NCBI RefSeq assembly: GCF_013927005.1
Contig: NZ_CP055930.1
Span: forward strand, 62,001 to 126,000
DNA length: 64,000 bases
Origin: Enterobacter sp. RHBSTW-00175
GTDB lineage: Bacteria > Pseudomonadota > Gammaproteobacteria > Enterobacterales > Enterobacteriaceae
Direction: 5' to 3'
The position numbers were made by a program, and so were the translations under genes. The notes beneath the pieces were generated by a model. That model saw only the letters and a list, made by a program, of their open reading frames with translations. It was not told the DNA's origin and did not search any database. Of this stretch, positions 15,294-57,574 are shown piece after piece (positions within the stretch are counted from its first letter, which is position 1; every line of letters starts with the position of its first letter).

Positions 15294-15599
15294 ATGACAA
15301 AACCGGGTTTTATTCAGCATCCCTGGACACATCAGCGCGGGGATTCCATGAGCGCAGCCTGTATTATTGAACACATTGAAAATGAGGCGATGCACGGATG
15401 CGGCCTTTATTATGAAATTTATCACTACCGGGTTGCCTGCCGGTTATTGCAGTTGCTGCAAACGTTAAACGCCACCGACAAAATAACGCTGACAGAAGAA
15501 GCTAACCGGCGTGGATTTACACTGGATGAAACCAGCATTAAAGAAAGTCGTCAGTGTTATTCCGACATCATCAGGGAAATCCGCGAGAGCCACTATTAA
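15294..15599 (+). CDS. Hypothetical protein between virB11 and oriT
   Basis: A 101-aa soluble, mostly helical protein with a GGAGG ribosome-binding site 8 bases before the ATG. I recognise no family. It contains a His-rich segment (CGLYYEIYHYRVACRLLQLL) and an acidic C-terminus (SDIIREIRESHY). An internal ATG at 15348 is an alternative start. It closes the transfer gene block on the left side of the probable oriT and may be an accessory to DNA processing; that is only a position-based guess. Confidence 0.55.
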   Translation: MTKPGFIQHPWTHQRGDSMSAACIIEHIENEAMHGCGLYYEIYHYRVACRLLQLLQTLNATDKITLTEEANRRGFTLDETSIKESRQCYSDIIREIRESHY

Positions 15600-16343
15600 T
15601 CCCTGCATTAATTTTATTCTCAGGTCCCCTATAGCGCCAAAATATTTCAGCCGAATCAAGCTTAAGGCGTGCCGGTTTTCAGGTTTTTACGGCTCCACAT
15701 TTTTCGCGGATTAAGGCGTGAAGAAATGCGGCCGTAAAAATGAGGCAGCGGACAGAATTATTTTCGCGGGTTAAGGAGCGAAAATATTTCAGGCACCGCG
15801 CCTCACCGGCAAACAGCCGCGCCCACGCGGATTTTGCCGGCCGGGGGGAGCCGAATAAATTTCGCCGCCCCGGCGAGCGAAAAGCTGTCGCCCACGACAG
15901 CGGTTTATTTGGGGGGCATCGCCCCGCACACCGTCGCGGCTAAGTCTCCGGCCAAAAGCCGGTAGCGTGGCGCGACCACCCTCTTTAAAGGTCAGCTTCC
16001 CTTTTATTCCCGCTGCGAGGAACGAGCAAAGGGAATAAGAAGGCGAAAGCGACCGTCTTAAAGGGGGTGGTCGCGCGTAGCGGGCGACGGTGTGCCGCCG
16101 TTGACGTCGGGGGTTTTGGCGCAGCGTCCAGCCGCGACATTACCCCCATGTGACATTACATAAGGGCGTCCAGCCCGCATGTACTGGCGCACGCCGTTCG
16201 GGCAGGCAAGCATGCTTTCCTGCACATGGCCGCAACGCGGCCACCTTCTTCGTCCCATACGCTCGCCCCACCTTTTCGCCCGACACCGTGGGGCGAACTG
16301 ATGGGGCGATGTCATGGGGCGAACCGCTGACGAAGGAGGCATC
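15600..16343. other. Probable origin of transfer (oriT) region with nested inverted repeats
   Basis: This 744-base gene-free region lies between the virB block and mobB-mobC. It has three kinds of structure. First, partial direct repeats (TTAAGGCGTG near 15662 and 15711, TTAAGGAGCG near 15769; AAAATATTTCAG near 15640 and 15780). Second, a 10-bp inverted repeat TTTTTACGGC (15684-15693) and its complement (15731-15740). Third, nested arms: GCACACCGTCGC (15926-15937) with 16084-16095, and CGCGACCACCC (15971-15981) with 16065-16075, enclosing TTCCCTTT/AAAGGGAA. In CloDF13, the MOBC prototype, oriT lies next to mobB-mobC. No nick site can be assigned. Confidence 0.65.
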
Positions 16344-18218: not shown

Positions 18219-18225
18219 AGGGGGA

Positions 18226-18975
18226 ATGATGCTCATCACCGCATACCGCGAACGCCAGACGCGACACCACGAAAAAATACAGCGACTGCTGAATTTTCTG
18301 AAGGAAGAGACGTACAGTGACTTTAAAACGCTGATGCTGCTGTTTGGCTTCCGGGATCATAAATCAATGTATTCCCTGCTTTCAAAAGTCGAGGCCATGG
18401 GCTTAATACACAAGCACGTCCTGGTATCGCGTACGATGAAAATTTCATTGTGGGGCATAACCAGTGACGGACTGGCCGTTGTATTAACACCCGACGATGC
18501 GCTTTTCCCGGCGCGGTTTGAGCCTTCAAAAATTACCGGCTGGACGCTGGAGCACCACCTTTATAATCAGGCAGCCCGGATCATCCTTGAGCAAAAAGGC
18601 GCATCCGGGTGGGTCAACGGCGATCGCACGACTTTCCTCAACCGGTATCAGGTCGGTCATCGCCCGGACGGTCTGATTACCCTCCCCGGCGGCACCGTGA
18701 TCGCTATTGAGACCGAGCGCCGCCTGAAAACCAGAGCCCGTTATCAGTCGATCATCGCCAGCCATTTGCTGGCCCGAACCCGTAAAGACTGGATTTACGT
18801 TTTTTATATCGTGCCGGACCCGCAGAAAAAACGCGGTCTTGAACGGCTGTTTGACAGCATCCGGCACGTCATCGTTAACCATCAACACATTCCGCTGGAA
18901 ACCCGCCACCGGAATGTCTTCCGCATCTATACGCTCGATGAACTGCAACGGCTCGATTTAGACCACGGCATATAG
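18226..18975 (+). CDS. mobC: MobC-like relaxase, MOBC family
   Basis: A 249-aa protein, close to the length of CloDF13 MobC (about 243 aa by memory). An N-terminal winged-helix part (LNFLKEETYSDFKTLMLLFGF) is followed by a core with VGHRPDGLI (Asp148) and IAIETERRLKTRARY (Glu162, Glu164, Lys168). That resembles the PD-(D/E)xK-like active site proposed for MOBC relaxases, which lack the HUH motif of other relaxases. It should nick oriT and lead the strand into the recipient. It starts 7 bases after mobB. Confidence 0.88.
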   Translation: MMLITAYRERQTRHHEKIQRLLNFLKEETYSDFKTLMLLFGFRDHKSMYSLLSKVEAMGLIHKHVLVSRTMKISLWGITSDGLAVVLTPDDALFPARFEPSKITGWTLEHHLYNQAARIILEQKGASGWVNGDRTTFLNRYQVGHRPDGLITLPGGTVIAIETERRLKTRARYQSIIASHLLARTRKDWIYVFYIVPDPQKKRGLERLFDSIRHVIVNHQHIPLETRHRNVFRIYTLDELQRLDLDHGI

Positions 18976-19080
18976 TTCTTCTGTATCACTTACAGCCCCA
19001 CCCCGCCAACCGGCAGCGCAACGACCTGAAATGATGCCCCTCGAAATACTCACCCAAAATCAGAACAGACAGGACACCAA

Positions 19081-25249: not shown

Positions 25250-25475
25250 TGCGTCCCCCTCCTATAGGGTACATTATCAGAAATCTTTGCCTGTTGGTGA
25301 TTGAAAGAAATCTGAGCGGCTTCCCATTGATTGGCGCGACTGAAACTGAGCGGAAGAGATTGACGCCATTTTGCAAGATACGTGGTAAAGCGCTGACGAT
25401 GGGTTCTTTCAATAAGCCGATTTCGAATCGGGAAAATCTTGTCGTTATCAGAACTGATTGATCGGGAGAAGCGCC

Positions 25476-26252
25476 GTGGGGCTATATGAGAAGTGGTGTG
25501 AGTCCATTAAAGATAATGACGAACGCAAGTATTACTGGACGTATGTCGAGAAGGACGGCGGCCGCGATGATATCCGCGAGGACCTTGCTGAGACCATTCG
25601 CTCGCACTACGACCGACTTGAACGCATCGCCGATGACGTAGGGCGACTAGGATACAAGGTTGCTGCCAAGATCCTCAGCGAGGCAATGCCTAATACCCCC
25701 AAGGGCCGCTCTGGCGACCTCGGCGAAATCCTTGCGACTGAACTAGTGGAGGAAGAAATCGGTCTGCGGGTACCCGTGCGCCGGCTCCGTTACAAGGACG
25801 GCCGTAACATGGCCATGCGCGGCGATGACTTCATCGGCGCGGGCTACCAAGGCAATAAGCTCTGGCTGCTAAAAGGTGAAGCTAAAAGTAACCAGAAGCT
25901 TGGCAAAACCACGGTCACCGCCGCCCGCAAGGTCCTCGACCGCGACAATGGCCGCTGCACGCCTGACTCGCTGCTGTTCGTCGCCAATCGCCTGCTGGAG
26001 AGCAACGACGCTGGCGATAACGCACTGGGTCGCGACCTGCGCGACGAAGTGGGTCTTAAATCTATGCGAGCCGATCGCATCGACCACATGCTCTTCACCG
26101 TTTCGGGTAACGGCCCTCACGCATCCCTGAAAGAGAACCTTGAAGCCGCTGGAGTCAACAGGGACCACTACGTCGTGAACATTCACGTCGAAGACCATCA
26201 GGATTTCATTACGGCAATGTACCTAGAGGCGGAAGATCTTGGAGACGACTGA
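25476..26252 (+). CDS. hamA: HamA, Hachiman defence nuclease (DUF1837)
   Basis: A 258-aa DUF1837 protein. A PD-(D/E)xK-like core is visible: RGDDFIG (Asp117, Asp118), then LLKGEAKSN (Glu135, Lys137). HamA is the effector nuclease of Hachiman, held by HamB and released when HamB meets damaged or phage-modified DNA. GTG 25476 is chosen because GGGAG precedes it; TTG 25458 is an alternative. The last 14 bases overlap hamB. Base composition is about 60 percent GC, well above the ICE genes on both sides, and codon use is like that of a GC-rich proteobacterium. Confidence 0.9.
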
Positions 26253-29200
26253 AGAATTAAGCACCTTCCTGACGGCCGCTACAGTTGACGGTATTCTCGG
26301 GCGCCTCCTCTATCGCGGTGCAGCTTGGTCGTTGATGCGCGAGGATGGCGTATTGCCGCAAAACGCTCCGCCGCTTGGCGCAACCATCGAAACAGATCTT
26401 GCCGAGCACGGTTTTGCCCTGCTTCGAGGCGCAATGGCACTGCGGGCTCAGGCTGGTGCTTCGGAACTCACTGGCAAGGCCTTTGAGCGCGCAGCCAACG
26501 CCTTCGAAGCCCTGGTGCGCAATGGTAATCCAGAGTCGCCTGATCGCGGATTCCGCCGCACCATTGCTGCTGCAGCCTACCATCTAGCCGGCTTCTCGGC
26601 CGTCGCCTTTTCAATCTTCAACGAGACAGAGGAAGACCTTAACGTCTCACCCGGCGAAATAGCGATCCGACACCTGATACTGCGCGATCTCGACCAACTT
26701 CGCGGCTTCGTTCGCGACTGGTTGGATGATGGGGCTCACGGCGATGAGCAGCTCGCGGCGGCACTGCAGGGCGGAGACGCTGACGTCGACGAAGTGCTGT
26801 CGACAATTCTCAATACGACGATCTGCCGTGCCCTGGCATTTTTCGACTTCGCGCTTGAGACGGGCGAGGTCGAGCCGATCGAAGCCGCACGAGGGCTCCT
26901 TACCACCACTGTCGGGCTTGCCAACAACGCTGAGAACGTCCCGCTGTGGTGGATCTCGAACCTCTGCCGTCACCTGATCGACGACTTGTGGCAACACTCG
27001 CTACACCAGAATTTGCCGACTGAGCCACCCGAGGGTGCGGAGGAAAAATATCCCGACCTGCGGCGGTTGTTTATATCTTCACTTTACGCCCGCAAGACCT
27101 CAGAGGTGGAGCTATGGCCATCGCAGCGCGAAGCCGCCCAGCGCTCCACAGACGTCACGGACGATCTGGTCGTCGCCCTGCCGACCAGCGCGGGCAAAAC
27201 ACGAGTGGCAGAGATTGCCGCGTTAATGACCCTATCCTCCGCACGCCGGGTGCTAATCGTCACACCGCTGCGCGCTCTTTCGGCCCAGACCGAACGATCT
27301 TTCAGGAAGACCTTCGCGCCACTAGGATTTGGTGTCTCTTCTCTCTACGGCGCCAGCGGCCTTTCGGTCGGTGATGAAGACGCCCTCCGCACACGGGAGA
27401 TCATCATTGCGACGCCCGAAAAACTCGACTTCGCTCTGAGAAGCGACCAGACGCTGATTGACGATGTCGGCCTGATCGTCCTCGACGAAGGCCACATGAT
27501 CGGTCCTAGTGAGCGCGAAATCCGCTATGAGACGCTCGTGCAGCGCCTACTTCGGCGCACGGATGCGGCAGAGCGCCGAATAGTTTGCCTTTCCGCGATC
27601 CTGCCAAGCGGCGACGAACTCGACGACCTTACCGCATGGATTCGTTCCGACGAACCCGGGGAGCCTGTGCGTTCCGACTGGCGCCCAACGCGCCAGAGAT
27701 TCGGCGTGCTTACTTGGCGAGGTAAGGACGCGTTGCTACGGCTCGATCTAGACGACGATGGCCCCTTCCTTGACAAATTCGTCGCGGAAAAACCAGCGAT
27801 CGGGAAGGAGAAGAAGCCCTATCCACGCAAGAACTCGCACCTCGCTCTGTTCGCGGCATGGGAGTTCGCGAGCCAGGGCAAGCGCACCTTGATCTTCTCT
27901 ACCCAAGCAAACTGGGTTGAGAGCTACGGCAAACAAGTCGTGGACCTCTGCAAGCGCGGCTATCTGGACTCGTTGCTGGAAGACGAGGCTCCAATCGCCC
28001 GCGCCCTGGAAGTCGGAAAGGAATGGTTGGGCGAGAATCACCCGGCCGTGGCCAGCCTGAAGGTGGGCGTTGCCATTCATCACGGCCGACTGCCGAGCCC
28101 GTTCCTACGCGAACTGGAACTGCTCCTATCCGAAGGAGCGCTAAAGGTCATTGTCGCTTCGCCGACGCTCGCGCAGGGCCTCAATCTCAACGCTGCCGTG
28201 CTGCTTGTGCCCGCGCTCTATCGCGCCTCCGAGAAGATCAAAGGCGAGGAGTTCGCGAACGTGGCCGGCCGCGCCGGACGTGCATTCGTCGATGTCGAGG
28301 GGCTGATCGTCCATGTCATGTTCGACAAAATCAAATGGCGAAAGAAAGAATGGAGGGAACTGGTCGCCTCTGCCAAGGCTAGGACGCTTAAAAGCGGCCT
28401 TATCCAGATCGTTGCCGAAATCATTGAGCGTCTATCGCGCGAGGGCGTCTTGGATAGAGATGACGCCTGGGAATATCTCGCCAACGCCCGCGAGGCTTGG
28501 AGGTCACTTGACGAAGAAGCAGGGGTGGCAGAACGACTGGCCGCCGCCGTGGAATACGACGCTACCACCGACGATGAAGACGAGACGGACGACGAGGAGG
28601 AAACCATCGACGAGGAGCCCCTGTCTCAGCTCGTCGAACGCCTCGATGCCACCGTATTCGGTCTGATCGAAGCCCTAGATGCTGATCGCGCCGATCTACC
28701 TAAGCTTCTAGACGAGGCGCTCAGGGGGTCACTCTGGGCTCGCCAAATTGCTCGGGAGGACGAGGATGTCGCTTCCCTGCACCGGAAGGTATTCGAAGCA
28801 CGCGCTGGTCTCATCTGGAAAGCCACCACCACCCCAACGCGACGCGGGCATTTCGCGATGGGAGTCGGGCTCGAAGCTGGCCTCCTCATCGACGCTATGG
28901 AGGACGAGCTGGCCGAACTCATCGACAGGGCAGACAGTGCAGCGTTGAGCGGCGACATCCACGAACTCGCCGATGCTCTCGGCGGACTCGGCGAACGCCT
29001 GCTGTTCATGCGGCCTTTCATCCCTGACAAGGCGAACGCGCTGCCGCCGAACTGGAAAGCTATCCTACGTAGTTGGGTGTCCGGGGAAGAAGTCTCCAAG
29101 ATCGGACCGCAGAACATGCGGGCGGTCGAAGATGCCTTCACCTATCGGCTAGTCTGGGCGCTAGAAGCCGTCCGCACCCGGCGCATGTCCTTCGGCTGGT

Positions 29201-29739
29201 CGCCGGATACGGTGGCGGGCGGTGCTGCGGCTGCGGTCGAAACCGGTGTCCCCCAGTTCATGATGGCGATGCTGATCCGCGCAGGCCTGCCGTCACGGCG
29301 CGCGGCAATGGCGGCCATCGAAGATGCTGAGCCACTCTTCGTCACGCCCGCAGAAATGCGGGCCTGGCTTGAATCCGACGAGATTACGGCCAAAACCGAC
29401 GCAGGCGACTGGCCAACACCCGACACCTCCGCGTTATGGGCACGCTTCCGAACCGAAGCTCTCAGCGGAGGCATCCAGAAATGGTCAGTCGAACGCTACA
29501 AGCGCCTACTCGATACCGAGTCCTCCCCGCCCGCTGGCCTCTATCGAATCCTCACCGACGAAGGGGACGCGCGGACTTGGCTGGCAACCCCCGACTACCA
29601 GCGGATCGCCGTCTTCAGGAAGCCAGCGGTTGATCCCAAGCCCAGCCTATTCTCGGGACGGTTACCGGGCAAAACCCGGCTCGTGGATGCTCTACGCGTC
29701 GGCCGCGGAAAGTTGCGTTGGCCAGCTGCCGACGCCTAA
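26239..29739 (+). CDS. hamB: HamB, Hachiman superfamily 2 helicase
   Basis: A 1,166-aa helicase starting at TTG and overlapping hamA. Motif I PTSAGKT is at 315-321, motif II DEGH at 416-419, a YGASGL segment between them, and motif VI VAGRAGR at 675-681. The N-terminal 270 residues and the C-terminal 450 are helical. An acidic linker (DATTDDEDETDDEEET, about 774-789) separates the helicase core from the tail. HamB is thought to translocate on DNA and control HamA. All catalytic motifs are intact, so the system should work. Confidence 0.92.
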   Translation: METTEELSTFLTAATVDGILGRLLYRGAAWSLMREDGVLPQNAPPLGATIETDLAEHGFALLRGAMALRAQAGASELTGKAFERAANAFEALVRNGNPESPDRGFRRTIAAAAYHLAGFSAVAFSIFNETEEDLNVSPGEIAIRHLILRDLDQLRGFVRDWLDDGAHGDEQLAAALQGGDADVDEVLSTILNTTICRALAFFDFALETGEVEPIEAARGLLTTTVGLANNAENVPLWWISNLCRHLIDDLWQHSLHQNLPTEPPEGAEEKYPDLRRLFISSLYARKTSEVELWPSQREAAQRSTDVTDDLVVALPTSAGKTRVAEIAALMTLSSARRVLIVTPLRALSAQTERSFRKTFAPLGFGVSSLYGASGLSVGDEDALRTREIIIATPEKLDFALRSDQTLIDDVGLIVLDEGHMIGPSEREIRYETLVQRLLRRTDAAERRIVCLSAILPSGDELDDLTAWIRSDEPGEPVRSDWRPTRQRFGVLTWRGKDALLRLDLDDDGPFLDKFVAEKPAIGKEKKPYPRKNSHLALFAAWEFASQGKRTLIFSTQANWVESYGKQVVDLCKRGYLDSLLEDEAPIARALEVGKEWLGENHPAVASLKVGVAIHHGRLPSPFLRELELLLSEGALKVIVASPTLAQGLNLNAAVLLVPALYRASEKIKGEEFANVAGRAGRAFVDVEGLIVHVMFDKIKWRKKEWRELVASAKARTLKSGLIQIVAEIIERLSREGVLDRDDAWEYLANAREAWRSLDEEAGVAERLAAAVEYDATTDDEDETDDEEETIDEEPLSQLVERLDATVFGLIEALDADRADLPKLLDEALRGSLWARQIAREDEDVASLHRKVFEARAGLIWKATTTPTRRGHFAMGVGLEAGLLIDAMEDELAELIDRADSAALSGDIHELADALGGLGERLLFMRPFIPDKANALPPNWKAILRSWVSGEEVSKIGPQNMRAVEDAFTYRLVWALEAVRTRRMSFGWSPDTVAGGAAAAVETGVPQFMMAMLIRAGLPSRRAAMAAIEDAEPLFVTPAEMRAWLESDEITAKTDAGDWPTPDTSALWARFRTEALSGGIQKWSVERYKRLLDTESSPPAGLYRILTDEGDARTWLATPDYQRIAVFRKPAVDPKPSLFSGRLPGKTRLVDALRVGRGKLRWPAADA

Positions 29740-32411: not shown

Positions 32412-34454
32412 TCAGTATACAGCGTTGCTAAGTTTCGCGTCCAGTTCCTTTGCAAAATCAAAGTCATTCCATTTTGTAAACCAATATTCATTTAATGAGA
32501 TAATTCTTTTCACACAAGATTTATCAATACCATAACGAGAAAGCAAAGATTTTTTAAAAGAAACAGGTATGTAAGGACAAGCTATTAGATCCAACGTTAA
32601 GTGAACCATTTCAGACTCATTTAGAAGAGTATCAATTTTCATGCTATAAATGTTTTCAATATGAAGCAAAAGATGTTTCCTGACTCCATCATATCTTTTT
32701 TTGTCACTCATATAAAACAATAAAGAAGTAATAGAAAAGTAATTTAAGTTATCATCAAATGTGTAGGCATCTCCATCAAAGCCAATATTAAAATATTTTA
32801 TTAAGCTTTTCTCGCCTAGCCAATAATATTTACCAAGCTGCCTGATTAACACCAGCAAATACAAAGTTTCAATAGGTGTTGTTTTATCAACAGAATATTT
32901 GTCTAAAATAGAACACGAGTTATCGAATACGCATTTGAATACAATATGTTGATATTCCTCGCCTAACTTTTGATCTTTAACAAACATAATTACTTGCTGA
33001 ATTATCCTGCATAATTTTATGGTGCTATTCACTTTCGGGGCAACTGCATATATAAAATATGTGAAATTCACCACAGATACAATAGCATTAATTAGTTGGC
33101 GGTCACCAGTTTCCTCTTTTGATAGTTCTTTATAATCTTTAAAAAGTGTCTTGATTTTCCTTTCAATTATAGACAATGAATAGTTTAAGATATCCGAATA
33201 TGTTATGCCTGATACAGAAAGTATCGATTTAAAGTCGGTAGATAAACTATTTTGATGTATATAGACATTGCCTTTATTTGAATCTTCGTCTAAAGAATCA
33301 TTGTCAATGATGTTATAAGATATTCTTTCAGATATCAAATTCGCTATTTTTTTCTTGGAAATAGTTATGGGAGTTATTATTGGACGGGAAAATTTCTCTT
33401 CTTTATATTTATTCAAACTTAGCTTGTAAGTTTTTAAATTTGTCTGAGCACTTATTCTAATTTTATTGAACACATCATCATCATTATAAAAAATGAAATA
33501 GTCATCGACATAGCGATATATTTGGTAATCTCCCCCAAGAACTAAACCCTCTTTATTAAGATCATTAATTATATTGTTATCCACTGACTGCATTATTATC
33601 TCTGCAAAAATTCTGGATAATTCCGGTCCAATTATTATGCCATTTGTTTCGTTGTAGTTAGACCTCTGCATTAATTGATCAAATTTAAATGGGAATGTCG
33701 ATTTTGTCTTATTTAACTGTTGTTTTGCATAATTTTTTTGCAAAACAGCCCATGAAATTGAGTGGGTATATATTGAATCAAAACAGTTCGATACATCTAA
33801 TTTAGAGAGGAAATTAAAACGTTTTTCACACCAATGATGATCTTCAGATTCATAAAACTCAAAAATATTACGATATTTCTTATAAACAAAAAAAGATTTT
33901 AAATTTTCATAATCCTGACCTTCAACCTCAATACTTAAATCTTCTTTCTCAAAACTTTCAATAAGAGACTTGGAATCGATGTAAGTACAACCAGCGACCC
34001 TTTTTGCTGATCTGAGGCTGAGTGGGCTAACATTAGAATAGTATGTTATTAAATCTTTATAATTTCTATAAAAATCAACACCTAATAACTGCCCCTTAGG
34101 ATGCATTAGAGACAAATATCTGTATTCTTTATGTTTATGCGAAATTGGAAAAGTAAAGGCAATACTAGGCAGTTTAGCATGCTCGATATTTGTTTTAATA
34201 TAACTAATGCCATCAACAACTATTTCAACTGTTGCAGTGCCCTTTTCAAGCCCCAATAAAAGTAGTATTAAACTATTTAAACAGTCATCTCTCTTTAACC
34301 ATATAAAATTCAATCCATCATGTTTTATTTGATACTTAACAATAAAGTTATAAAAATGTCTATTTGAAAAAATAATAGGAACTTCATATGGTAAAAAATC
34401 GGAAAGAACTACTCGTTCTATAGGGAAATTTATAGATAATGCTTTTTTAGACAT
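32412..34454 (-). CDS. drt3b: Second defence reverse transcriptase, Drt3b-like (UG8)
   Basis: A 680-aa RT of the unknown-group (UG/Abi) lineage. Motif A is FLSKLDVSNCFDSIYTHS with Asp220, motif B NGIIIGPELSRIFAE (about 271-285), and motif C YRYVDDYFIFY with YVDD at about 315-318. The C-terminal 350 residues are helical. ATG 34454 overlaps the first RT gene by 8 bases (translational coupling); a longer frame from 34580 exists but would overlap by 134. Two RTs side by side, UG3 then UG8, define DRT type 3. GC is about 30 percent, far below the neighbours. Confidence 0.85.
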   Translation of the reverse strand: MSKKALSINFPIERVVLSDFLPYEVPIIFSNRHFYNFIVKYQIKHDGLNFIWLKRDDCLNSLILLLLGLEKGTATVEIVVDGISYIKTNIEHAKLPSIAFTFPISHKHKEYRYLSLMHPKGQLLGVDFYRNYKDLITYYSNVSPLSLRSAKRVAGCTYIDSKSLIESFEKEDLSIEVEGQDYENLKSFFVYKKYRNIFEFYESEDHHWCEKRFNFLSKLDVSNCFDSIYTHSISWAVLQKNYAKQQLNKTKSTFPFKFDQLMQRSNYNETNGIIIGPELSRIFAEIIMQSVDNNIINDLNKEGLVLGGDYQIYRYVDDYFIFYNDDDVFNKIRISAQTNLKTYKLSLNKYKEEKFSRPIITPITISKKKIANLISERISYNIIDNDSLDEDSNKGNVYIHQNSLSTDFKSILSVSGITYSDILNYSLSIIERKIKTLFKDYKELSKEETGDRQLINAIVSVVNFTYFIYAVAPKVNSTIKLCRIIQQVIMFVKDQKLGEEYQHIVFKCVFDNSCSILDKYSVDKTTPIETLYLLVLIRQLGKYYWLGEKSLIKYFNIGFDGDAYTFDDNLNYFSITSLLFYMSDKKRYDGVRKHLLLHIENIYSMKIDTLLNESEMVHLTLDLIACPYIPVSFKKSLLSRYGIDKSCVKRIISLNEYWFTKWNDFDFAKELDAKLSNAVY

Positions 34455-35796
34455 GTGACCATCCCTTAGATATCTCGCTAAATTCGATGAAACTAAATTT
34501 CCTGAAAACTTTATCTTCAAAACCTTTACTAAAAGAAAATCTACTAATTCTTTTTTTAAGTTTCTGATCTTGCAATCCATTTATTTTATTCGACAAATAA
34601 GCATCTAATCCACTTAAGTCAGATAAATCAGTTATGAATCGATTGCTAAAATATATGCCAACAAAAGCTTTTGACTTACTATTATAAAGCCGAGTATTTC
34701 CGGTAAGAAACTTCATTCTAAGCAAAATATTTTTTGCTGCTCTCTTCGGTGTTTTACTAACACTCTGATTATATTCATCAAATGTTTTATCAATTCGACC
34801 TCTAATTTTTTGAACTTTATTAGAACTCATTTTTATACTACAACCTCCAGCTGTTAGCTGAAATTTATATCCTAGATATTCAAAGTTTTTATTAGTTTGT
34901 GTAAATAAATCCAATTCTTTTGTTTTATTATTTAGGAACAATCCACGATCATTTATAATATTAGTGATTTTGGGGAGATAGTCATCTGTATTCCCCCCTT
35001 TATTTGGCGAGAAAACTACTATCAAGTCATCTACAAATCGTTCATAATAAGTAACATCTGGTAAGGTTCTTATTTTATCATCTACAACACTCATATACAG
35101 CTCAGATAAATACGAACTTATGCCTACACCACGAGGCACCCCTTTATCTAATCCAGTTAAAGCCTGATATTTTCTAATTAGCTGAGTAATCACCCGACGT
35201 GGAGGAACAGATAATTTAGGTGATGAATGTAACATATCTAATAAAGACTTATGATTTATAGATTCATAAAAACTTTCAACATCGGCCCTAATTATATACT
35301 TTGGACTCATTTCCTTAGCCAAAGCGCTTAGGCGACTGATAATCAGATCCCTATTATTTGATTTTATTGTATATAACGCGCTTAAAATACACTTTATTTG
35401 CCGAGACACAAATAATTCTTCAACTGAATTTCCAATTGAATATACACTTTTATTTTTCACTTGTTGTGGCAATAACGTCAAAGGTAACGTGTACCCTTTT
35501 ACACTGACATTACTTGCAATAATCTTCAACTTTTCATTTACTTCATTATTATATTGTTCTTTCCTTAGTTTAATATGCGCATTAATTATATTTTTCTTTT
35601 CTTCAAATTTAGCAGCGCTAATCTGACCACTTTTAAGTCTTCTTGAGTGCCAGTAAATAAAAGCTTTTAACCTTATCATTTTCTTCCTAATTTTATAAGC
35701 ATCAGGAAAGTGTTCAACTTCTATAGTACCTTTGTTTTTCCTATCTAGGTCGTATATTCTTCTAAAATTTTTTGCTGAAAAAGACTGATCAATCAT
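34447..35796 (-). CDS. drt3a: First defence reverse transcriptase, Drt3a-like (UG3)
   Basis: A 449-aa RT. Motif A is IIRADVESFYESINH (Asp172 by this start), motif B GVPRGVGISSYLSELYM, motif C YYERFVDDLIVVF (FVDD), motif D NNKTKELDLF and motif E NFEYLGYKF. The order and length fit the UG3 partner of DRT3. ATG 35796 follows AAGGAGATTGAAA; the TTG six bases upstream is less likely. In DRT3, this RT is the one reported to copy the ncRNA template. The pair protects against phage. Confidence 0.85.
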   Translation of the reverse strand: MIDQSFSAKNFRRIYDLDRKNKGTIEVEHFPDAYKIRKKMIRLKAFIYWHSRRLKSGQISAAKFEEKKNIINAHIKLRKEQYNNEVNEKLKIIASNVSVKGYTLPLTLLPQQVKNKSVYSIGNSVEELFVSRQIKCILSALYTIKSNNRDLIISRLSALAKEMSPKYIIRADVESFYESINHKSLLDMLHSSPKLSVPPRRVITQLIRKYQALTGLDKGVPRGVGISSYLSELYMSVVDDKIRTLPDVTYYERFVDDLIVVFSPNKGGNTDDYLPKITNIINDRGLFLNNKTKELDLFTQTNKNFEYLGYKFQLTAGGCSIKMSSNKVQKIRGRIDKTFDEYNQSVSKTPKRAAKNILLRMKFLTGNTRLYNSKSKAFVGIYFSNRFITDLSDLSGLDAYLSNKINGLQDQKLKKRISRFSFSKGFEDKVFRKFSFIEFSEISKGWSHV

Positions 35797-35995
35797 TTTC
35801 AATCTCCTTTATGATCAATATTACGAAAAATTTTTCTACCGTGATTATCATCGTTTTTCACCGTCAGAACGTTCCCGGTCAATCTTTATCAACCGAGTAT
35901 TAAGTTGATGTTCTGTCATTCCATGTTTGTATGCATTGTATTACCAGATCACAAACTGCTGTTTGAACCTCCGGTTCTCTTTCTTAAGCTCTTCT

Positions 35996-48950: not shown

Positions 48951-49832
48951 TTAAAAAGCGTAACCGACAGTTAAATAGTATGCCCACCCTGTTGAATCTA
49001 TAGTGGTGATATTTCCATCGCTGTTAAATGCTTTACTACCTTCATCAAATTGCCCGCCATGATAGAAATAACGAAGGGTTGCACCGTAGTTCCAGTGAGG
49101 ATAAACCAGGCTGAGCACGTTGGTGGACACTATCGAACTATTTGTACGCGAGTAAAATTGTTGCTCTCCGCCTGATTCATCTTTTAGGTCTGAACCAAAA
49201 TCAAAATTGGTAAAACCGACATAACTTAGTTTGCCACCAAATATTGTTGTAAGAGGTATGACATACTTTACCTTGAAGCGATATCCATCCCACTCATTTT
49301 CGTTGGCAGCATTGTAATTGTTCCCTTGATATTTGGCATAGATGTTTGCAGATAACGTCATCGGTAGCCCCGTATCAATATCTGTTCCTAGCCCCATATA
49401 CCAGGTACTCTGTCGCTGCCCTGCGTTGGAACCTGCATCATAGATATAGTTGTGGGCAAAATACCATTCTTTAAATGGACCGAAGCTTAGATCGAGTCCT
49501 GTTAACTTGTCGATGCTAAAACGCGGCTCTATCTCTGCAAAAAATGGAGAACCATTGTCCCAAATACCGATATCATTATCATTGCCTATACCAAAAAACT
49601 TAGGTAAGTCTGCGTAACCGTAGAAATCAAACCAATCCACATGAGCCCAGGCACGATACTCTGGATATAAGTCTGCTCTTTTTAGTGGCCCAAAGCGAGT
49701 TGAGTTGCTTCCAACCACATTAATGCTTTGATGCCACCAGTCTGATAAATATTCATTACTTACAGAGTCTGCCAATGCTGCCGTGGGTAACAGCATAAAT
49801 ACACCTGATAATATATTTGTTATTTTTTGCAT
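48951..49832 (-). CDS. Tsx-like nucleoside-specific outer-membrane channel
   Basis: A 293-aa beta-barrel protein: signal peptide [21 protein letters not shown], early [13 protein letters not shown] and the terminal aromatic YLTVGYAF. These match the Tsx/OmpK family (Tsx begins with the same WWHQSVNVVGS-like sequence). It should let nucleosides through the outer membrane. It lies 70 bases downstream of a periplasmic 5'-nucleotidase gene on the same strand, which gives a clear salvage logic. It is probably a second Tsx paralogue. Confidence 0.88.
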
Positions 49833-49901: not shown

Positions 49902-51464
49902 CTATTTAGCCATACTTACGTCGACCACTCTCATCTCAAGATCGGGTTTCAATGGATTATTTGTCTTGACATAATCCATGATTGACTCAGCAGAAGTTGT
50001 ACTGTTGATCGTTTTGATATTCGTTCCTTTTAAGAACGCGTCAAATCCATCCCCACCCGTCGCGCAAAATGAGTGTGTAGCAACCCGATATGTTTTGGTT
50101 AGATCTACTGCTTGATTATCAATAGTGAATTTAATGATTCGCTCACCCAACGGTTTTTTACTGTCATATTCAACATGAACGTTTTTTGAGACTTGCAAAA
50201 CTCCATTGGTAAGATTAGTTGCGTGGACCATTAAATTGACGAGATCCTTTCCGGTGAGATCCATTTCAATAAGTTCGTTATTAAATGGGAAGGTAGTAAT
50301 TACATCACCATAACTTAACTCCCCTTGTGGTAAATCAGCACGCAACCCTCCGCTGTTTTGTAAACCCACGACGGCGTCTGGCGCTTTGGCCATCATGGCA
50401 TCAATAACTAAATTACCAACAGGTGACGATTCACCATAAGAACGCGTGAATGCTGTCGTTGTCGACCCAATGATTTGGTCAGTGATACTTTTCAGTTTAG
50501 CATTCCACTCATCAATCCTGGCTTGAACTTTTGGGTCCGGTTTATATTCGTCTGCAAATATAGTGATTAGTTTACCGCTATAGCCATCAATTTTTTTAGT
50601 CTTCGGGTTTAGATTCAATACAAGTTTACCAATATCGGTACCATACGCATCCGTTGAAACGATGAGCGTGTCATTCACTTTTATTGGCTCAGGTGTACCC
50701 ACATGAGCATGACCGGTGATTAACACATCAATGCCCTTAAATTTCTTTGCGGTATCGATATCGGCTTGCAACATCCTGGCTACGTCTTTATTTCCATAAC
50801 TTGACTGGCGCGCTGGCGTACCTTCATGGATAAGCAATACGATGATATCAACCTTGCCTTTTAACGCATCAAGCCCTTTTTGAATGTAAGGTACTTCATC
50901 ACGGGTCTCTGCGCCAGCGTAAGCCTTAGCGGCAACTGTGTCATAAAATGCAAATTTCTGATGTATACCAATTACGCCAATTTTAACGCCATCTTTTTCG
51001 ACAATCGTCCAGGGGTTATTCCATACGGGCTTGTCACTTTTGGCATAAAATACATTACCCAGTAAAATAGGGAAATCCGCTTTTGATAACTGTTTAACCA
51101 TATTATCAACGCCATGGTCAAATTCATGATTCCCCACTGACACCGCATCAAAGGGCATTGCATTCATTATGTCAATAATTGCTTCACCTTTGGTTAAGGT
51201 GCTTATATAAGGCCCGGTAAAATAATCTCCCGCATCAAAGAAAAATACATCTTTACTTTTTTTCTTTGCATCATTAACGATGGTTGCTATGTTCGCAAAA
51301 CCACCGACCAAACGTTCTTTGTCGACGACGGGAACTTTCCCTGGAGATACATGAGCATGTAAATCGTTGGTGTAATAGATCGTCACATCCTTTGCGCTAA
51401 CTGATGCTGTTAATGTTGCAGACAAACACAATGCAATCAAACTAAGCTTAGTTCTTCTCTTCAT
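49902..51464 (-). CDS. Periplasmic 5'-nucleotidase, UshA-like (paralogue 1)
   Basis: A 520-aa exported enzyme with signal peptide MKRRTKLSLIALCLSATLTA. The metallophosphatase motifs [27 protein letters not shown] and [12 protein letters not shown] are present. The C-terminal substrate domain carries LQNSGGLRADLPQG and ATHSFCATGGDGF. It dephosphorylates nucleotides or UDP-sugars in the periplasm. It is clearly related to the next gene upstream. A palindrome CATGCA, 6 bases, TGCATG at 51516-51533 lies before the gene. Confidence 0.9.
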   Translation of the reverse strand: MKRRTKLSLIALCLSATLTASVSAKDVTIYYTNDLHAHVSPGKVPVVDKERLVGGFANIATIVNDAKKKSKDVFFFDAGDYFTGPYISTLTKGEAIIDIMNAMPFDAVSVGNHEFDHGVDNMVKQLSKADFPILLGNVFYAKSDKPVWNNPWTIVEKDGVKIGVIGIHQKFAFYDTVAAKAYAGAETRDEVPYIQKGLDALKGKVDIIVLLIHEGTPARQSSYGNKDVARMLQADIDTAKKFKGIDVLITGHAHVGTPEPIKVNDTLIVSTDAYGTDIGKLVLNLNPKTKKIDGYSGKLITIFADEYKPDPKVQARIDEWNAKLKSITDQIIGSTTTAFTRSYGESSPVGNLVIDAMMAKAPDAVVGLQNSGGLRADLPQGELSYGDVITTFPFNNELIEMDLTGKDLVNLMVHATNLTNGVLQVSKNVHVEYDSKKPLGERIIKFTIDNQAVDLTKTYRVATHSFCATGGDGFDAFLKGTNIKTINSTTSAESIMDYVKTNNPLKPDLEMRVVDVSMAK

Positions 51465-51648: not shown

Positions 51649-53205
51649 TTATTTTTTCACATCAGCAACGCGCATACCGGTAAGTTGTTCATCGGTAATG
51701 GTGTTACCTGCTTTAAAGTAATCGATCACTGCGTTGTAAACGTAATACCCACCGTTTGTATTACGCGCTTTACCCTCGGTAAACGTGGTGAAGCCGTCGC
51801 CACCATCAGCAAGGAAGTTTTGGGTAGCAATGTGATAAACCGTCGCATCCTCAATCGCTTTGCCATTAAGTGTAAGTTCCAGAACTCGTTGTCCAACAGG
51901 CTTACTACTGTCGTACTTCATTTCCACGCCTTTTGAGACCTGCAGCACCCCGTTACTTAAACTTGCACCATGCTCCATCAGACTACGTAATTGTTTACCG
52001 GTAAGATCCATAGTGACCAGCTCGTTAGGGAATGGGAATGTACTAATGACCCCCCCCATCGTAATCGCACCAGACGGGATCTCACTGCGGATACCGCCAG
52101 AGTTGGTTAAAGCCAACTGTGTAGTTTTACCTGCAGCGGCCAGCAAAGCGTCCGCAGCAAGATTGCCAAGTGAGGCTGATTCACCATATGCACGTGTTAA
52201 TTCAACCGGCGACTGCGCCACCGTTTGTCCTACCACTTCATCAAGTTTCTTATTCCAGCGGTCAATCACCTGCTTCGTTTGCGGATCCGGCTTCCACTCA
52301 TCAGCGTATATGGTTTTAAGCTCGAAATTTTTCACCGTAAAGCTATGTGGCTTCTCTTTGTAGTCCAGTACCAGTTTCCCTACATCGATACCACCGCTGT
52401 CGGTCGAGAGGATTAGCGTATTACCTACTTTAATCGGTTCCGGCGTACCGACATGCGCATGTCCGGTAATCAGAATATCCAGACCTTTCACCTGGCTTGC
52501 CGTCTGAATATCCTTATCCAGCGCACGACGCACATCTGTGCTTCCTATACTGGACTGACGGGCAGGTGTGCCTTCGTGGACCAGCAATACGGTCAAATCC
52601 ACTTTTTCCTTAAGTTCATCGATATAACGCTGTAACCATTTAATCTCATCCCGTGCTTCAATACCTTCGCGCGTTGTAGCGGAAACGGTATCATCAAAGG
52701 CAAACACGCCGTGCAAGCCTATAACGCCAATTTTCACCCCCTCTTTCTCAATAATGGTATATGGCTTATCCCAAAACGCTTTATCGCTGTTCTGATAAAA
52801 AATATTGCCCTGTACAATGGGGAATTTCGCCTGGCTAAGCTGGAGCAACGTATTATCCCAGCCATCATCAAATTCATGATTGCCCATTGTGACTGCATCA
52901 AACGGCATGGTATTCATAATATCAATGATCGCCTTGCCCTTCGTTAAACTGCTGATATAAGGGCCGGTAAAATAGTCACCTGCATCAAAAAACCATGTAG
53001 CTTCGTTTTTGCTTTTTTCCTTTTTTACCAGCGTGGTGATATTTGCCCAGCCACCGACGTCACGTTTACCGTCAGCAATCCATGGCACTTTATAAGGTTC
53101 CACATGGGCATGGAGATCATTGGTATAAATAATAGTGACATCCTTGGCACAGGCCCAGAATGGTAATGTCAACAAAATACCCGTAGCAATCACTTTTAAT
53201 TTCAT
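51649..53205 (-). CDS. Periplasmic 5'-nucleotidase, UshA-like (paralogue 2)
   Basis: A 518-aa exported enzyme with signal [20 protein letters not shown]. Motifs [53 protein letters not shown] and [13 protein letters not shown] mirror those of the downstream gene, showing gene duplication. ATG 53205 follows AAGGTGAAAATT; the ATG five codons earlier is less likely. A CRP box lies at class II distance upstream. Confidence 0.9.
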
Positions 53206-53229
53206 AATTTTCACCTTCATTCACATTAA

Positions 53230-53336: not shown

Positions 53337-54476
53337 ATGTCGACTTTATTTACAATTAATAGCTGCAAGACGTTTGGGTGTCGCAATTTAGGGTTAGCGA
53401 CATCTGAAGATTACAGTTGGCCGGACTATCGACTAGGTTATCCGGCATTGCACTGTCGGGCATGTGGTAGTTATCCTCCTCTATTTGAAGCACATCAATT
53501 TAATGAATGGTTGTCAGCTCACTTAAGTGCCTATGCCTCTGAAAGTGGCTATTTTTGTCCTGTATGTTATGGCAAAGAAACTATTCGCTATGGTTATAAT
53601 CCGCAAGGAACACAGCGCGTTCAGTGCCGCACCTGCAAAAAAGTCTGGACACCGAAACGACAATTACTAAGAGAAATAACATCACCAGAACGGATTGAAA
53701 CGGTATCTTTAATTGTGCCGTTCCAGGGGAGGAGAGCAGATCAAAAACTGTATGTCCTGCTAAGTTTCGATGCTATTCAAGGTAATATTATTCATATTTC
53801 CACTAATTTCACTCAGCATTCCGCTGGGGAAACCCTACGTTATCTCTGCCGAGGGAATATTGAGCCTGATTTGGATCACCGTGATATCGTAAAACACGTT
53901 GATATGCGCGAGATGCAATTTCTACATCGCAGTCAGTTCGATGAAATTCAGTACGGAAGTGCTGTACTCAAACGCATTGCAAAAGGTGCTATTCTGCGTC
54001 CGGTTATCGCTGCTCATGGGCATTTTCGGGTACTGAACATCCTCTTTCCTGAGATAAAGACACATCTTATTTCTCACGAATGTTTTCTTCGGGGAGCAGT
54101 TATTACTGTTTGGGCAAAACTGTTCCGCCAACGACAAGCTGAACTTTGGTATATAGAGGAGGATATAAGCGACAGTGATACGAATATGCCCTGGCATTTT
54201 CAGGGTAAAACGCGGCATGGCTGGTGGCAAAGTCAGTGGTCGCTTTGGGTACAGGGAAAAAACCGTAAGATGGTTTGCTCATTAACGAATGGGGATAGCA
54301 ATAACGCTAAAACACTCTCTTTAGCAGCCAGTAGGCACTATATCCAATGGCTATATAAACAAACGGATTTTATCCATAGCGCTAAATTATCCGCAGGGCG
54401 CGTAACACAAATACTATGTTCCCTGGCGCAAGACTACAACTGTAAGATTATGAAGGAAAATGAAAACCGAGAATAA
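53337..54476 (+). CDS. Zinc-ribbon protein related to IS1-like InsA domains
   Basis: A 379-aa protein with several Cys pairs in the first 110 residues: CKTFGC, LHCRACGSY, FCPVCYGKE and VQCRTCKKVW. The segment YFCPVC, GYNPQGTQRVQCRTC resembles the InsA-type zinc ribbon that precedes transposase domains. The remaining 270 residues show no DDE triad that I can identify, and no inverted terminal repeats were seen. It may be a domesticated transposase-derived DNA-binding protein. It is divergent from the nucleotidase operon with a shared regulatory region. Confidence 0.6.
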   Translation: MSTLFTINSCKTFGCRNLGLATSEDYSWPDYRLGYPALHCRACGSYPPLFEAHQFNEWLSAHLSAYASESGYFCPVCYGKETIRYGYNPQGTQRVQCRTCKKVWTPKRQLLREITSPERIETVSLIVPFQGRRADQKLYVLLSFDAIQGNIIHISTNFTQHSAGETLRYLCRGNIEPDLDHRDIVKHVDMREMQFLHRSQFDEIQYGSAVLKRIAKGAILRPVIAAHGHFRVLNILFPEIKTHLISHECFLRGAVITVWAKLFRQRQAELWYIEEDISDSDTNMPWHFQGKTRHGWWQSQWSLWVQGKNRKMVCSLTNGDSNNAKTLSLAASRHYIQWLYKQTDFIHSAKLSAGRVTQILCSLAQDYNCKIMKENENRE

Positions 54477-54551
54477 TGAGGCCATGTTGCATTTTTCCCG
54501 TGATCTTATCGTCTTGCTAAGACAGGCACTAAACACCTGGCCTGTATCGTC

Positions 54552-54585
54552 AAGGGTTCATGCAAATACATGAACCCTTTTAATA
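54552..54585. terminator. Bidirectional terminator
   Basis: AAGGGTTCATG and CATGAACCCTT arms with a 6-base loop, a T run on the + strand and an A run before the hairpin. It can stop transcription from both the zinc-ribbon gene and the convergent arylsulfotransferase-like gene. Confidence 0.85.
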
Positions 54586-54657
54586 TATGCAATGATATCA
54601 ATTATTTATTAAAACGGATGATCAATCGCACTTGTTCTTTATACATAAACCGTTTCT

Positions 54658-56184
54658 TTAGTTTACAGTAATTGATGCCGTAGTGATTAGATCAGATAGC
54701 TCTGTTTCGTTAAATAATCTTGCACGATAGCCCTCTGCTGGGAATTGCGGCGCGCCATCAGGAAGAGAAATTACATCGTAGATGGTGGCAATCATGTTAC
54801 CGTTCACATCAGAGATAAAGAATGAACGGGCATGGTTGGTAAAAATAACAAAGTAATCATCATGGTCAAACACTCCCCCCATAAAATCAGTCCACTGGAC
54901 GATAGGTGTGGTTGGCAGTTCGATAGGCGCTTGAATTTCCACAGCCGTTTTCGCTGCTAAGTCAACAGCATAGAACAGAATACGAGCAGGAGGTGTTGAA
55001 TAGGCATCCGTTGTTGCATCGTCATTCATCGGGCGTACAACAGGATTTCCATCTGCATCAAGACATGATCTATTATCAAAGACAGATAAAACAAATTTCC
55101 CCACGGTAGAGTCGATATATTCTGCAAATGCACTATTATTTGTAATGCACACAGTGTGAGCACCATTTTCATAGTGAGTAATACCGGAATTATCAATCTG
55201 AATAGTATCTGGATTCACCGGGAATTGAGGGTTGAAATTCCCGGTATCGATCGCCCACAAGATACTACCATCAACGATAGATACGCCAAACGTCGTACTC
55301 GTTGAACGGGAATGAACAATAACTGCTTCATCATTATTTGGGCTACTTGCAATCCATGAAAGTGAGTTTAAATGAATATCATTAGGAGTACTGTTATTCA
55401 AAATTTGAGTACCGCTATACTCACTGGTGTAATTTTTTGCCCAAATCATTTTCCCGGTCTGATCGTTAAATTTAAGAACCAGAGAATCTTGCCCCATCGT
55501 GTTGGTTATACGATTAGGACTATCGTTACCGAACATATAAATATCGCCAGCTGAGTCCCAGACTAAATCGTGAGTATTTGAATAGTGATTGCCATCTGAA
55601 TCACGCATGTCGAATTCAAAGATAACATTACCGAGAATGTCAATTTTGAAAAAGCGACGACCATACCACGACATATCTTCATCGCTACCAGTATAGATGT
55701 AACCATTGTGAATTCTCAGCGGCTGGAGATGATACACTGATAAGAAGTTAAAACGCAGGTCACCATTTTGATCGTAACCTCGGCCAGTCGATTGCATCAA
55801 CCAACTATTTCCCCAAACAGATGTAAACAGCGCAGGATCAGTTTGTTCAATATCGAGATGGAAGATTACAGATTTATCATAAACCTGATCCACCGTGCTA
55901 ACAGAGAATGGTTGATTGAAAACTTCAGCCCCAGTTTCGTCCTTAAACACAACCTGAACGTCGTTTGCATATTGTGCATAAAGACCAATGACAGGAATTT
56001 TTATGGTTTGAGAAACACCATAAATCAGCTCCGAGGAATAGGTGAAATCTACGCTAGTCGAACTGGTTGTCCGTTTTGCTACAGTGTAAGAGTAGCTAAC
56101 TGGTGTATCTGAAGTAAAATAAAGATAAGCAGCAAGTTGGTTGTCAGCCGGTGCAAGTTCAGTTTTAACATAAGTAATTGTCAT
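54658..56184 (-). CDS. Arylsulfotransferase-like beta-propeller protein without signal peptide
   Basis: A 508-aa protein. After an N-terminal beta-domain (about 1-105) come propeller-like repeats with the features of ASST: YHLQPLRIHNGYIYTGSDED, RFFKIDILGNVIFEFDMRD, HDLVWDSAGDIYMFGND (a His-x-x-x-x-Asp at the usual place) and DIHLNSLSW. ASST enzymes transfer sulfate between phenols and normally carry a Sec signal; none is present here. AAAAGGAATAAAATC precedes ATG 56184. It lies next to a holin and an endopeptidase on the same strand, which may export it. Confidence 0.6.
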   Translation of the reverse strand: MTITYVKTELAPADNQLAAYLYFTSDTPVSYSYTVAKRTTSSTSVDFTYSSELIYGVSQTIKIPVIGLYAQYANDVQVVFKDETGAEVFNQPFSVSTVDQVYDKSVIFHLDIEQTDPALFTSVWGNSWLMQSTGRGYDQNGDLRFNFLSVYHLQPLRIHNGYIYTGSDEDMSWYGRRFFKIDILGNVIFEFDMRDSDGNHYSNTHDLVWDSAGDIYMFGNDSPNRITNTMGQDSLVLKFNDQTGKMIWAKNYTSEYSGTQILNNSTPNDIHLNSLSWIASSPNNDEAVIVHSRSTSTTFGVSIVDGSILWAIDTGNFNPQFPVNPDTIQIDNSGITHYENGAHTVCITNNSAFAEYIDSTVGKFVLSVFDNRSCLDADGNPVVRPMNDDATTDAYSTPPARILFYAVDLAAKTAVEIQAPIELPTTPIVQWTDFMGGVFDHDDYFVIFTNHARSFFISDVNGNMIATIYDVISLPDGAPQFPAEGYRARLFNETELSDLITTASITVN

Positions 56185-56471
56185 GATTTTATTCCTTTTG
56201 GATTTAAGATTTAAAATACGATTTTTATTAAACACCCATACATATAGAACATAATAATATCCATATATTATTATTTGATTAGATATGTACAGTAATTGCT
56301 TGTATAAGCAATAGTTTACCTACTACTTTCAGAAGTAATTAAAAATGGATGTGTATTGTAGTACTCCTCTTACAAAATAGCTGTGTAAACAGCGACGTGG
56401 CTAATCATCCTGCAAATGCAGGTGTACCGTATTATCTGTATAAAAGATCTGCGAGAAACTTTCAGATGCTA
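56185..56471. other. Intergenic region with a palindromic operator
   Basis: 287 AT-rich bases between the endopeptidase stop and the arylsulfotransferase-like gene. ATTGCTT, 4 bases, AAGCAAT at 56295-56312 is a perfect inverted repeat 111 bases upstream of the start and could be a repressor or activator site. No T-rich terminator follows the endopeptidase gene, so read-through into the propeller gene is possible. Confidence 0.55.
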
Positions 56472-56858
56472 TTATGGATACATTTTCCGTGAGAGCTGAA
56501 AATGAACACCATCCTTTATTTCCGTCCAGTTACCACCCCATTCAATATCAACATCCAACTCCTTCGCAGCCTGAAACACTGCTGTGGCAATTGTTTGGTA
56601 ATGTTTAAACTCCCATGAGGCCGTACCATTTATAACTGCAAATATATCGACAGCATGCCCCGTTAAATGCCTGCTATTTGACGTTAATGATTTCCCTGCT
56701 GCCAATAGTTCAAGCTGCCGTTTTTGGTTTCTTAACCCTTCTGAAATACCAAAATCAACAGGTGATAATTTCAATGCTTTTCTCATTACATCAGAAAGGT
56801 CTTTATGTACGCCTTTAAGATTTTTTTCAGTAGTTTTACTGAATTCATGGTTCATCAT
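56472..56858 (-). CDS. M15-type peptidoglycan endopeptidase (T10SS ChiX/endolysin-like)
   Basis: A 128-aa M15 metallopeptidase with zinc ligands in SRHLTGHAVDIF (His, Asp) and DGVHFQL (His), and the usual Glu-His core SEGLRNQKRQLELLAAGKS. No signal peptide, like phage T5 endolysin and Serratia ChiX, L-Ala-D-Glu endopeptidases of about 135 aa. It cleaves peptide stems after a holin lets it into the periplasm. ATG 56858 has GGAG 5 bases upstream. The start overlaps the holin gene by 14 bases. Confidence 0.88.
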   Translation of the reverse strand: MMNHEFSKTTEKNLKGVHKDLSDVMRKALKLSPVDFGISEGLRNQKRQLELLAAGKSLTSNSRHLTGHAVDIFAVINGTASWEFKHYQTIATAVFQAAKELDVDIEWGGNWTEIKDGVHFQLSRKMYP

Positions 56859-57156
56859 TGTCATCTCCAGAGATTTTTTTCCAGTAATAATTAAGGGCAA
56901 CAACGCCCATTGCACCTGATATGCCACTAACCGCAAGTGAAGTATGAAATACCGAACCAAGGCTTTGTGACATCAATCCAGAAAGTACACCGGTAAAACC
57001 TGAAACAATAATTTGTGCTAATGCCGTAAATAAACTTCGTCCAGACTGACCAGACTTAACATCAAGGATATATCTGACAAGACCTCCCCACGCACCGAAT
57101 AATATTATGTAAATCCAGCTAAAGAACGCATTTGTTGATGGGTCTTTCCATGGCAA
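56845..57156 (-). CDS. Holin (LydA/phage_holin_3_3-like)
   Basis: A 103-aa protein with three hydrophobic segments: about 11-30 (FSWIYIILFGAWGGLVRYIL), 43-63 (ALAQIIVSGFTGVLSGLMSQ) and 75-92 (AVSGISGAMGVVALNYYW), and a charged C-terminus. The N-terminus is in the cytoplasm in the family model. Holins make inner-membrane lesions that release endolysins. The AGGAGGT site lies 12 bases before the ATG. No tail, capsid, terminase or integrase gene is nearby, so this is not a prophage remnant in the usual sense. Confidence 0.82.
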   Translation of the reverse strand: MPWKDPSTNAFFSWIYIILFGAWGGLVRYILDVKSGQSGRSLFTALAQIIVSGFTGVLSGLMSQSLGSVFHTSLAVSGISGAMGVVALNYYWKKISGDDNDEP

Positions 57157-57242
57157 AACAATTACCTCCTAAGGTTGAAAAAGTAAAAACGTTACCGTCC
57201 GATGAGATTATTTTTTCGTAACTGAGCTATTGCTTTTGCTAT

Positions 57243-57291
57243 GTAGTGAATAATAAACGTTGAGCAACCCTGTTTTGTGATGAATGTCACA
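57243..57291 (-). promoter_or_regulatory. Candidate class II CRP-dependent promoter of the holin-endopeptidase pair
   Basis: TGTGA, 6 bases, TCACA at 57276-57291 is a perfect match to the CRP core. On the minus strand a TATTAT -10 lies at 57255-57250, giving a start near 57243 and a CRP site centre at about -41. That is the class II arrangement. The holin start codon is 87 bases further on. Confidence 0.65.
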
Positions 57292-57574
57292 CGGAATGCA
57301 ATTAATAGCTTGCATCGATCAATCATCTACTAATGATAGTTAATATTTATTGATTGTAATCATACTATTTAGTAGTGGAATGCATAAGAGGGGCAAGCGG
57401 GAGGGGGCAACCCGATAGCGCGACGACTACTGGGTTTAAGTAGGGAATGATGCTGGAGCCGTAACGCTCTGACCTTCGAGGATTTTGCAGTACCTGGGGG
57501 GGATTCAATCGCGTCGATGGGTGAACGCGGTAGTTACAGTGAGGGTGAAAACATTTCGCTGGTGCAGAAAAGCA
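57292..57574. other. Gene-free stretch between the holin promoter and tRNA-Asn
   Basis: No gene with a credible start. The part 57,375-57,560 has a higher GC content than the holin leader and no visible structure except the terminator at its right end. Confidence 0.5.

Follow-up and report, generated by a model that had tools for sequence, protein, structure and literature searches.

Type 10 secretion systems (T10SSs) are described as clusters of holin, endolysin, and spanin genes in the available text of PMC10847048. In the ChiWXYZ system of Serratia marcescens, the holin gene is followed by an overlapping gene for a leaderless M15_4 endopeptidase outside prophages, ChiY and ChiZ are the spanins, and the chitinase cargo is Sec-exported; leaderless MaeB adjoins this system according to the accessible part of PMC9527704. 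The Salmonella ChiH/ChiP/ChiA T10SS consists of two genes, a holin and a TtsA-like hydrolase, located beside an enzyme and accompanied by the regulator ChiR, and the available portions of PMC10109510 and PMC13284979 present it as lacking spanins. The T10SS of Yersinia handles a Tc toxin, a very large complex without a usual export route; Yersinia entomophaga uses Rz/Rz1, and spanins are called crucial for the release of its cytoplasmic cargo (PMC10847048, in part). The arylsulfotransferase (ASST) of E. coli CFT073 (PDB accession numbers 3ELQ and 3ETT) is periplasmic and is encoded in an operon with DsbL/DsbI (available text of PMC13426309).

The locus presented here contains three genes, all on the minus strand and within 54658..57291 of the 64-kb window, i.e., the whole stretch of DNA that was analysed; they are the holin gene, the overlapping M15 gene, and the ASST-like gene of the original prediction. 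The holin (56848-57156, minus strand, 103 aa) is a LydA-type protein of holin superfamily III (PF16083, E = 1.8e-16) with three hydrophobic segments in the hydropathy profile. Its start codon is TTG, preceded by AGGAGG, and the upstream ATG start of the relatives P0029, P0030, and P0032 is blocked by an in-frame TAG. The M15_4 endopeptidase gene (56475-56858, minus strand, 128 aa; PF13539, E = 8.5e-13) begins 14 nt inside the holin gene, counting the stop codon, and inspection of the N-terminus by eye indicates a hydrolase without a signal peptide, an arrangement like that of ChiWXYZ. The third gene (54661-56184, minus strand, 508 aa) encodes a leaderless ASST (PF05935, E = 7e-10; PF17425, E = 3e-9) in which an N-terminal Ig-like domain precedes a β-propeller, i.e., Arylsulfotran_N plus propeller. 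NCBIfam gives no rows for the holin or the M15 protein and one row, far under the cut-off, for the ASST. The 287-nt gap between the M15 and ASST genes has a poorly conserved middle, which makes their co-transcription uncertain.

A CRP-like site with the consensus form TGTGA-N6-TCACA (57276..57291, minus strand) is located upstream of the holin gene, starting 134-137 nt before the holin start, and a TATTAT hexamer resembling a -10 element follows at approximately the spacing of class II CRP promoters. The window contains one exact match to this site (0.04 expected) and four with one mismatch (1.9 expected). The site is kept in all eight carriers of the trio, exactly in seven and with one mismatch in one, with TATTAT at the same distance from it in 8/8. 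The holin, the endopeptidase, and the predicted leaderless ASST are conserved together as a block, with a single promoter-like element in front.

No capsid, tail, terminase, or integrase gene was recognised near the trio when the ORF lists were judged by eye, as had been claimed. A search of 50,697 phage records gave no ASST match at 1e-5, and none was found in viral_contigs, a search able to show close relatives only. On the grounds of the missing phage structural genes (by eye), purifying selection, and the lack of an ASST match in phage records, we reject a prophage remnant. Between 53000 and 57800, a tRNA is the sole match to an RNA element. A 22-nt inverted repeat (54555..54576) is located between the convergent ASST and zinc-ribbon genes, occurring once in the window against 0.03 expected; a z of -4.5 was also obtained for it. 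The same kind of repeat is observed at the ends of islet genes, i.e., after the ASST in the window and at L108 5260, L133 8542 (between two ushA genes), and L134 6825; such repeats may be rearrangement sites. The neighbouring gene outside the trio encodes a 379-aa IS1/InsA-type zinc-ribbon protein (53337..54473, plus strand; NF050000, 4.4e-6, 27.1 bits, just under the cut-off of 28) and is a member of most islets. It is divergent from the nucleotidase-type gene ushA2, and several loci of the sister clades have a version at 35-39% that accompanies the nucleotidase gene; its product may be a regulator or a tamed transposase. Elsewhere in the window, a Hachiman-type defence pair (25458-29736, plus strand) consists of HamA (PADLOC, E = 4e-109) and HamB (E = 0), and a DRT type 3 reverse-transcriptase pair (32415-35802, minus strand) consists of Drt3b (E = 2.6e-195) and Drt3a (E = 5.7e-109) in overlapping frames. 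Conjugation genes of the VirB/VirD4 kind, as in an ICE-like element, were recognised by eye at approximately 5000-19000 (plus strand), and a tRNA-Asn is located at 42873.

The closest solved structure to the M15 protein is ChiX (PDB accession number 5opz, E = 5e-38); the alignment runs from residue 5 on, and the stretches SRHLTGHAVD and DG.HFQL are common to both proteins. Phage endolysins of the Sasha/9NA type are 58-60% identical to it, and it is the only PF13539 match in the 5.57-Mb genome. In a tree of 49 M15 rows, which left out family and Citrobacter-group matches without an assigned locus as well as loci L111, L114, and L116-L118, the M15s of the trio group apart from all others (100/100), at the end of a long stem. 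The placement of this clade is unsure, and descent of the trio M15 from ChiX or another sampled M15 is unsupported. Unlike ChiW, which belongs to PF05106, the holin is a PF16083 protein, and no window-type holin is present in any of seven chi-type loci at E < 1 (tblastn).

The N-terminus of the ASST has no hydrophobic stretch by eye, unlike those of the two UshA-like proteins of the adjacent islet. The start column is shared by 23 of 24 aligned ASST rows, including that of the window (the exceptions in the alignment are a later start in P0025 and an insertion in P0028), and in VIA-align the 3ETT chain is already matched at its residue 10 by residue 3 of the ASST model. In view of the shared start column, the composition of the N-terminus, and the 3ETT alignment, we reject a leader hidden by an annotation error, and the leaderless state proposed earlier is borne out by the same comparisons. 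His205, His271, Arg293, and His343 are invariant across the 24 rows. A sequence search of the PDB gave no ASST match at 1e-3, the E. coli enzyme appearing at 0.04-0.05 with a loose limit; in a weak profile alignment, the His271 and Arg293 regions pair with E. coli ASST. We infer that His343 corresponds to His436, the catalytic histidine of the E. coli enzyme. Unlike that enzyme, which is accompanied by DsbL/DsbI, the window ASST has no Dsb-like gene recognised nearby (ORF list, by eye). Relatives at approximately 30% identity are also leaderless by eye and are located beside sulfatase-type genes (one tested, PF00884), and one annotated record of such a relative has PTS and sulfatase-maturase genes near the ASST; these neighbours suggest cytoplasmic work. 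Leaderlessness is family-wide, so that an origin as an adaptation to export through the holin-M15 pair is improbable; the lack of a leader is old and is compatible with cytoplasmic work.

In the host genus, the ASST is found in 18 of 61 genomes (seven full-length at 86-100%, four at 56-62%, one of which is split, one fragment at 88%, and six at 30-32%) and the M15 in 12 (seven at 89-100% and five at 47-55%). The genomes with an M15 of the trio type (89-100%) and those with an ASST at 86% or above are the same 7/61. The 392 family genomes contain 10 with the ASST and 42 with the M15; the numbers for the 17 genomes of the Citrobacter group are 3 and 5, respectively, and one of this group (G458) is the eighth carrier, with the holin, the M15, and the first 30 ASST residues before the contig end. 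Three of 394 order genomes have an ASST match (two own-genus, one fragment), plasmids have one at 29.5%, and no DNA match was found in E. coli genomes. The ASST adjoins the pair in 8/8 carriers (in G458 as far as residue 30), and all three frames are open in five; G458 is cut by the contig end, the Silvania holin (L027) has lost 37 codons in frame, and the M15 of G010 (L031) has a premature stop, with the ASST open in both of the latter. That the propeller always accompanies the pair holds for the carriers but fails beyond them, since an ASST at 55-86% occurs without an M15 match in eight genomes (G006, G007, G008, G049, G260, G274, G284, and G406; one ASST is split). G260, G274, G284, and G406 are absent from the 42 M15 matches, and the ASST and M15 searches each drew 392 family genomes. 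Sister ASSTs (55-63%) directly follow a UshA-like gene whose product is Sec-exported, and neither a holin nor an M15 match accompanies them; the Pluralibacter ASST (86%) has the same ushA-then-ASST order. Near the trio site in L108, L134, and L007, where there is no M15 match, ASST scars (internal or 5' losses) were observed, from which we infer loss of the block, perhaps on more than one occasion.

All three genes of the trio are under strong purifying selection, with dN/dS values of 0.065-0.151 for the holin (15 pairs), 0.034-0.118 for the M15 (21 pairs), and 0.056-0.116 for the ASST (21 pairs) at dS of 0.17-0.99; the Silvania holin and all genes of Citrobacter L109 were left out. The distances of M15 and ASST agree weakly among seven carriers, L109 again being left out (Mantel r = 0.35, p = 0.048). 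In G021, matches at E 1e-5 are confined to the equivalents of window positions 54545-56199 and 56460-57477, with genes resembling a PTS permease and folD (named by eye) on either side, and the nucleotidase islet stays beside a MATE gene 0.7 Mb away. The extent of this match defines the block as the promoter, holin, M15, ASST, and the inverted repeat that closes it. The G021 block is the best evidence that ties the ASST to the holin-M15 pair, and it is a single event.

A holin of the ChiW type (PF05106 in L090, the locus tested) and ChiX are found in most chi-type loci of Serratia, along with two ORFs that look spanin-like by eye and neighbours that we take to be chitinase and MaeB; L089 has no spanin-like ORF. 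Unlike these systems, the window locus has no counterpart found for ChiY and ChiZ, and its candidate cargo is leaderless instead of Sec-exported. It resembles the Salmonella T10SS in being a pair, with no spanin found, beside an enzyme, but its hydrolase is an M15 endopeptidase instead of a TtsA-like protein and a CRP-like site stands in place of ChiR, and it resembles Tc-type loci in having a candidate cargo without the usual export route. One Tc-type locus, L100, contains a window-type holin (tblastn, 3e-19) and an M15 beside a Tc-like gene (by eye), and L098, which is not Tc-like, also has a PF16083 holin and an M15; both differ from the window in the spanin-like ORFs, judged by eye, that follow the M15 gene. 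Tc- or Rhs-like genes, whose products also look leaderless by eye, were recognised by eye in L127, L128, and L130. The holins of L127 and of L083, a locus related to L128, both belong to PF16931; none was recognised in L130. L126 and L131 contain a small membrane-type protein (no Pfam match in L126), a LysR-type gene, an M15, and a protein of approximately 1.47 kaa that is leaderless by eye. These comparisons suggest that M15-based lysis genes were domesticated repeatedly with leaderless neighbours.

The protein of approximately 1.47 kaa (L126 2536-6948 and L131 2244-6650, both minus strand) was tested in L126, where it has a GH29 fucosidase, an F5/8-type, and a glucoamylase domain, and is possibly a T10SS cargo of another kind. 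Loci L083, L086, L087, L088, and L094 combine a PF16931 holin (tested in L083), an M15, and a chemoreceptor-like gene, in some cases with an added ORF without a Pfam match (tested in L086); L128 is a fuller version of the L083-type locus with an Rhs-like gene by eye.

The window locus is genuine, conserved, and T10SS-like, with an unusual partner: a holin and a peptidoglycan hydrolase lie outside a prophage (surroundings judged by eye), and a candidate cargo nearby is kept with them. The original prediction of a T10SS with a propeller cargo stands as regards the non-prophage holin and the ChiX-like endopeptidase conserved beside the ASST, and it is weakened by the occurrence of the propeller without the pair, one of the conditions that it had itself named as refuting. 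We tentatively prefer, at somewhat less than an even chance, a T10SS-like unit without spanins that the host has domesticated, that CRP probably activates, and that releases the ASST. The holin would let the leaderless endopeptidase into the periplasm, where it would cleave the L-Ala-D-Glu bond of wall peptides like ChiX, and the ASST would escape by way of the holin lesion and the breached wall, whether from cells that stay alive or from only part of the population. As in the original prediction, no spanins were seen at the locus: the minus strand of the M15-ASST gap has no ORF of at least 20 aa besides the ends of both genes, the plus strand has only ORFs of 23-47 aa with no hidden spanin recognised, and PF03245 has 0 matches in the whole genome. 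The spanin-less T10SSs of Salmonella (available text of PMC13284979) imply that this is no bar to membership, whereas the need for spanins in Yersinia entomophaga (PMC10847048, in part) slightly lowers the chances both of the preferred reading and of the general release route considered below. The same deficit bears on lytic release, in which the pair, controlled by CRP, would kill a minor part of the population and so free the cytoplasmic ASST together with all other cell contents. A leaderless cargo with a phage-type holin fits this, and the accessible part of PMC10847048 reports that Yersinia entomophaga frees its Tc toxin by subpopulation lysis, as well as lysis in Serratia; but no spanin was found at the locus, an Rz-type gene is annotated in 4/6 phage lysis cassettes (of the others, P88 has a DUF2570 gene there and pPE4 has none in the stretch shown), and we regard lytic release as quite improbable.

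The Sec-exported proteins of the islet are a second candidate client. The ushA2 product (51652..53220, minus strand; PF02872, 3e-38; PF00149, 1e-13) and its paralogue (49905..51464, minus strand) are UshA-like proteins of the 5'-nucleotidase superfamily with Sec-type N-termini, located near a Tsx-type nucleoside channel gene (48954..49832, minus strand; PF03502, 7e-70); all 14 NCBIfam rows for the ushA2 product, SoxB included, are far below the cut-offs, and its naming is by superfamily only. The pair might serve these proteins in their passage through the wall, with the ASST acting in the same pathway but remaining cytoplasmic, a reading that we regard as unlikely but serious. It draws on the presence of ushA2 at 88% or above in 9/61 genus genomes, which include all seven trio genomes, among them G021 with its unlinked copy, on its presence at 69-71% in four more, the same four that carry a sister ASST, on the ushA gene directly before the ASST in sister clades, and on the proposal by Palmer et al. 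in 2021, from genomic co-occurrence, that Sec-exported nucleotidases are T10SS-dependent (available text of PMC9527704). Against it, the G021 block holds the ASST apart from the nucleotidase islet, and ushA2 occurs without an M15 match in G027, G057, G451, and G448. Under the preferred reading, the UshA-like proteins may share the wall opening with the ASST. The released client may be the ASST, the nucleotidase-type proteins, or both, or neither may be released. That the lysis pair is unlinked to the ASST, as a chance neighbour or prophage debris, is very unlikely and already strained: the ASST family does occur without the pair, and the pair is damaged in 2/8 carriers, but selection acts on all three genes, the block is found as such in G021, the promoter element is shared, and co-occurrence in the genus is 7/7.

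The available portions of the T10SS papers PMC9527704, PMC13284979, PMC10109510, and PMC10847048 do not mention a sulfotransferase, and no relevant literature was found for an arylsulfotransferase together with a holin; the locus may be included in the survey of Palmer et al. 2021, which these searches did not cover. Should the ASST prove to be released, no earlier case of a sulfotransferase as a T10SS client is known to us, and the cargo of this two-gene system would be a leaderless enzyme other than a toxin. More broadly, and rather doubtfully, domesticated holin-M15 pairs of enterobacteria, often without spanins, may be a general release route for leaderless, interchangeable cargo, the candidates being the ASST here and, at other loci, the 1.47-kaa fucosidase/glucoamylase protein as well as proteins of the Rhs/Tc-like kind; on this view, the ASST would transfer sulfuryl groups outside the cell, its release being under catabolite control. 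Release of the ASST would also allow a test of whether folded cytoplasmic proteins can pass holins when neither spanins nor lysis are involved, a point disputed in the published papers.
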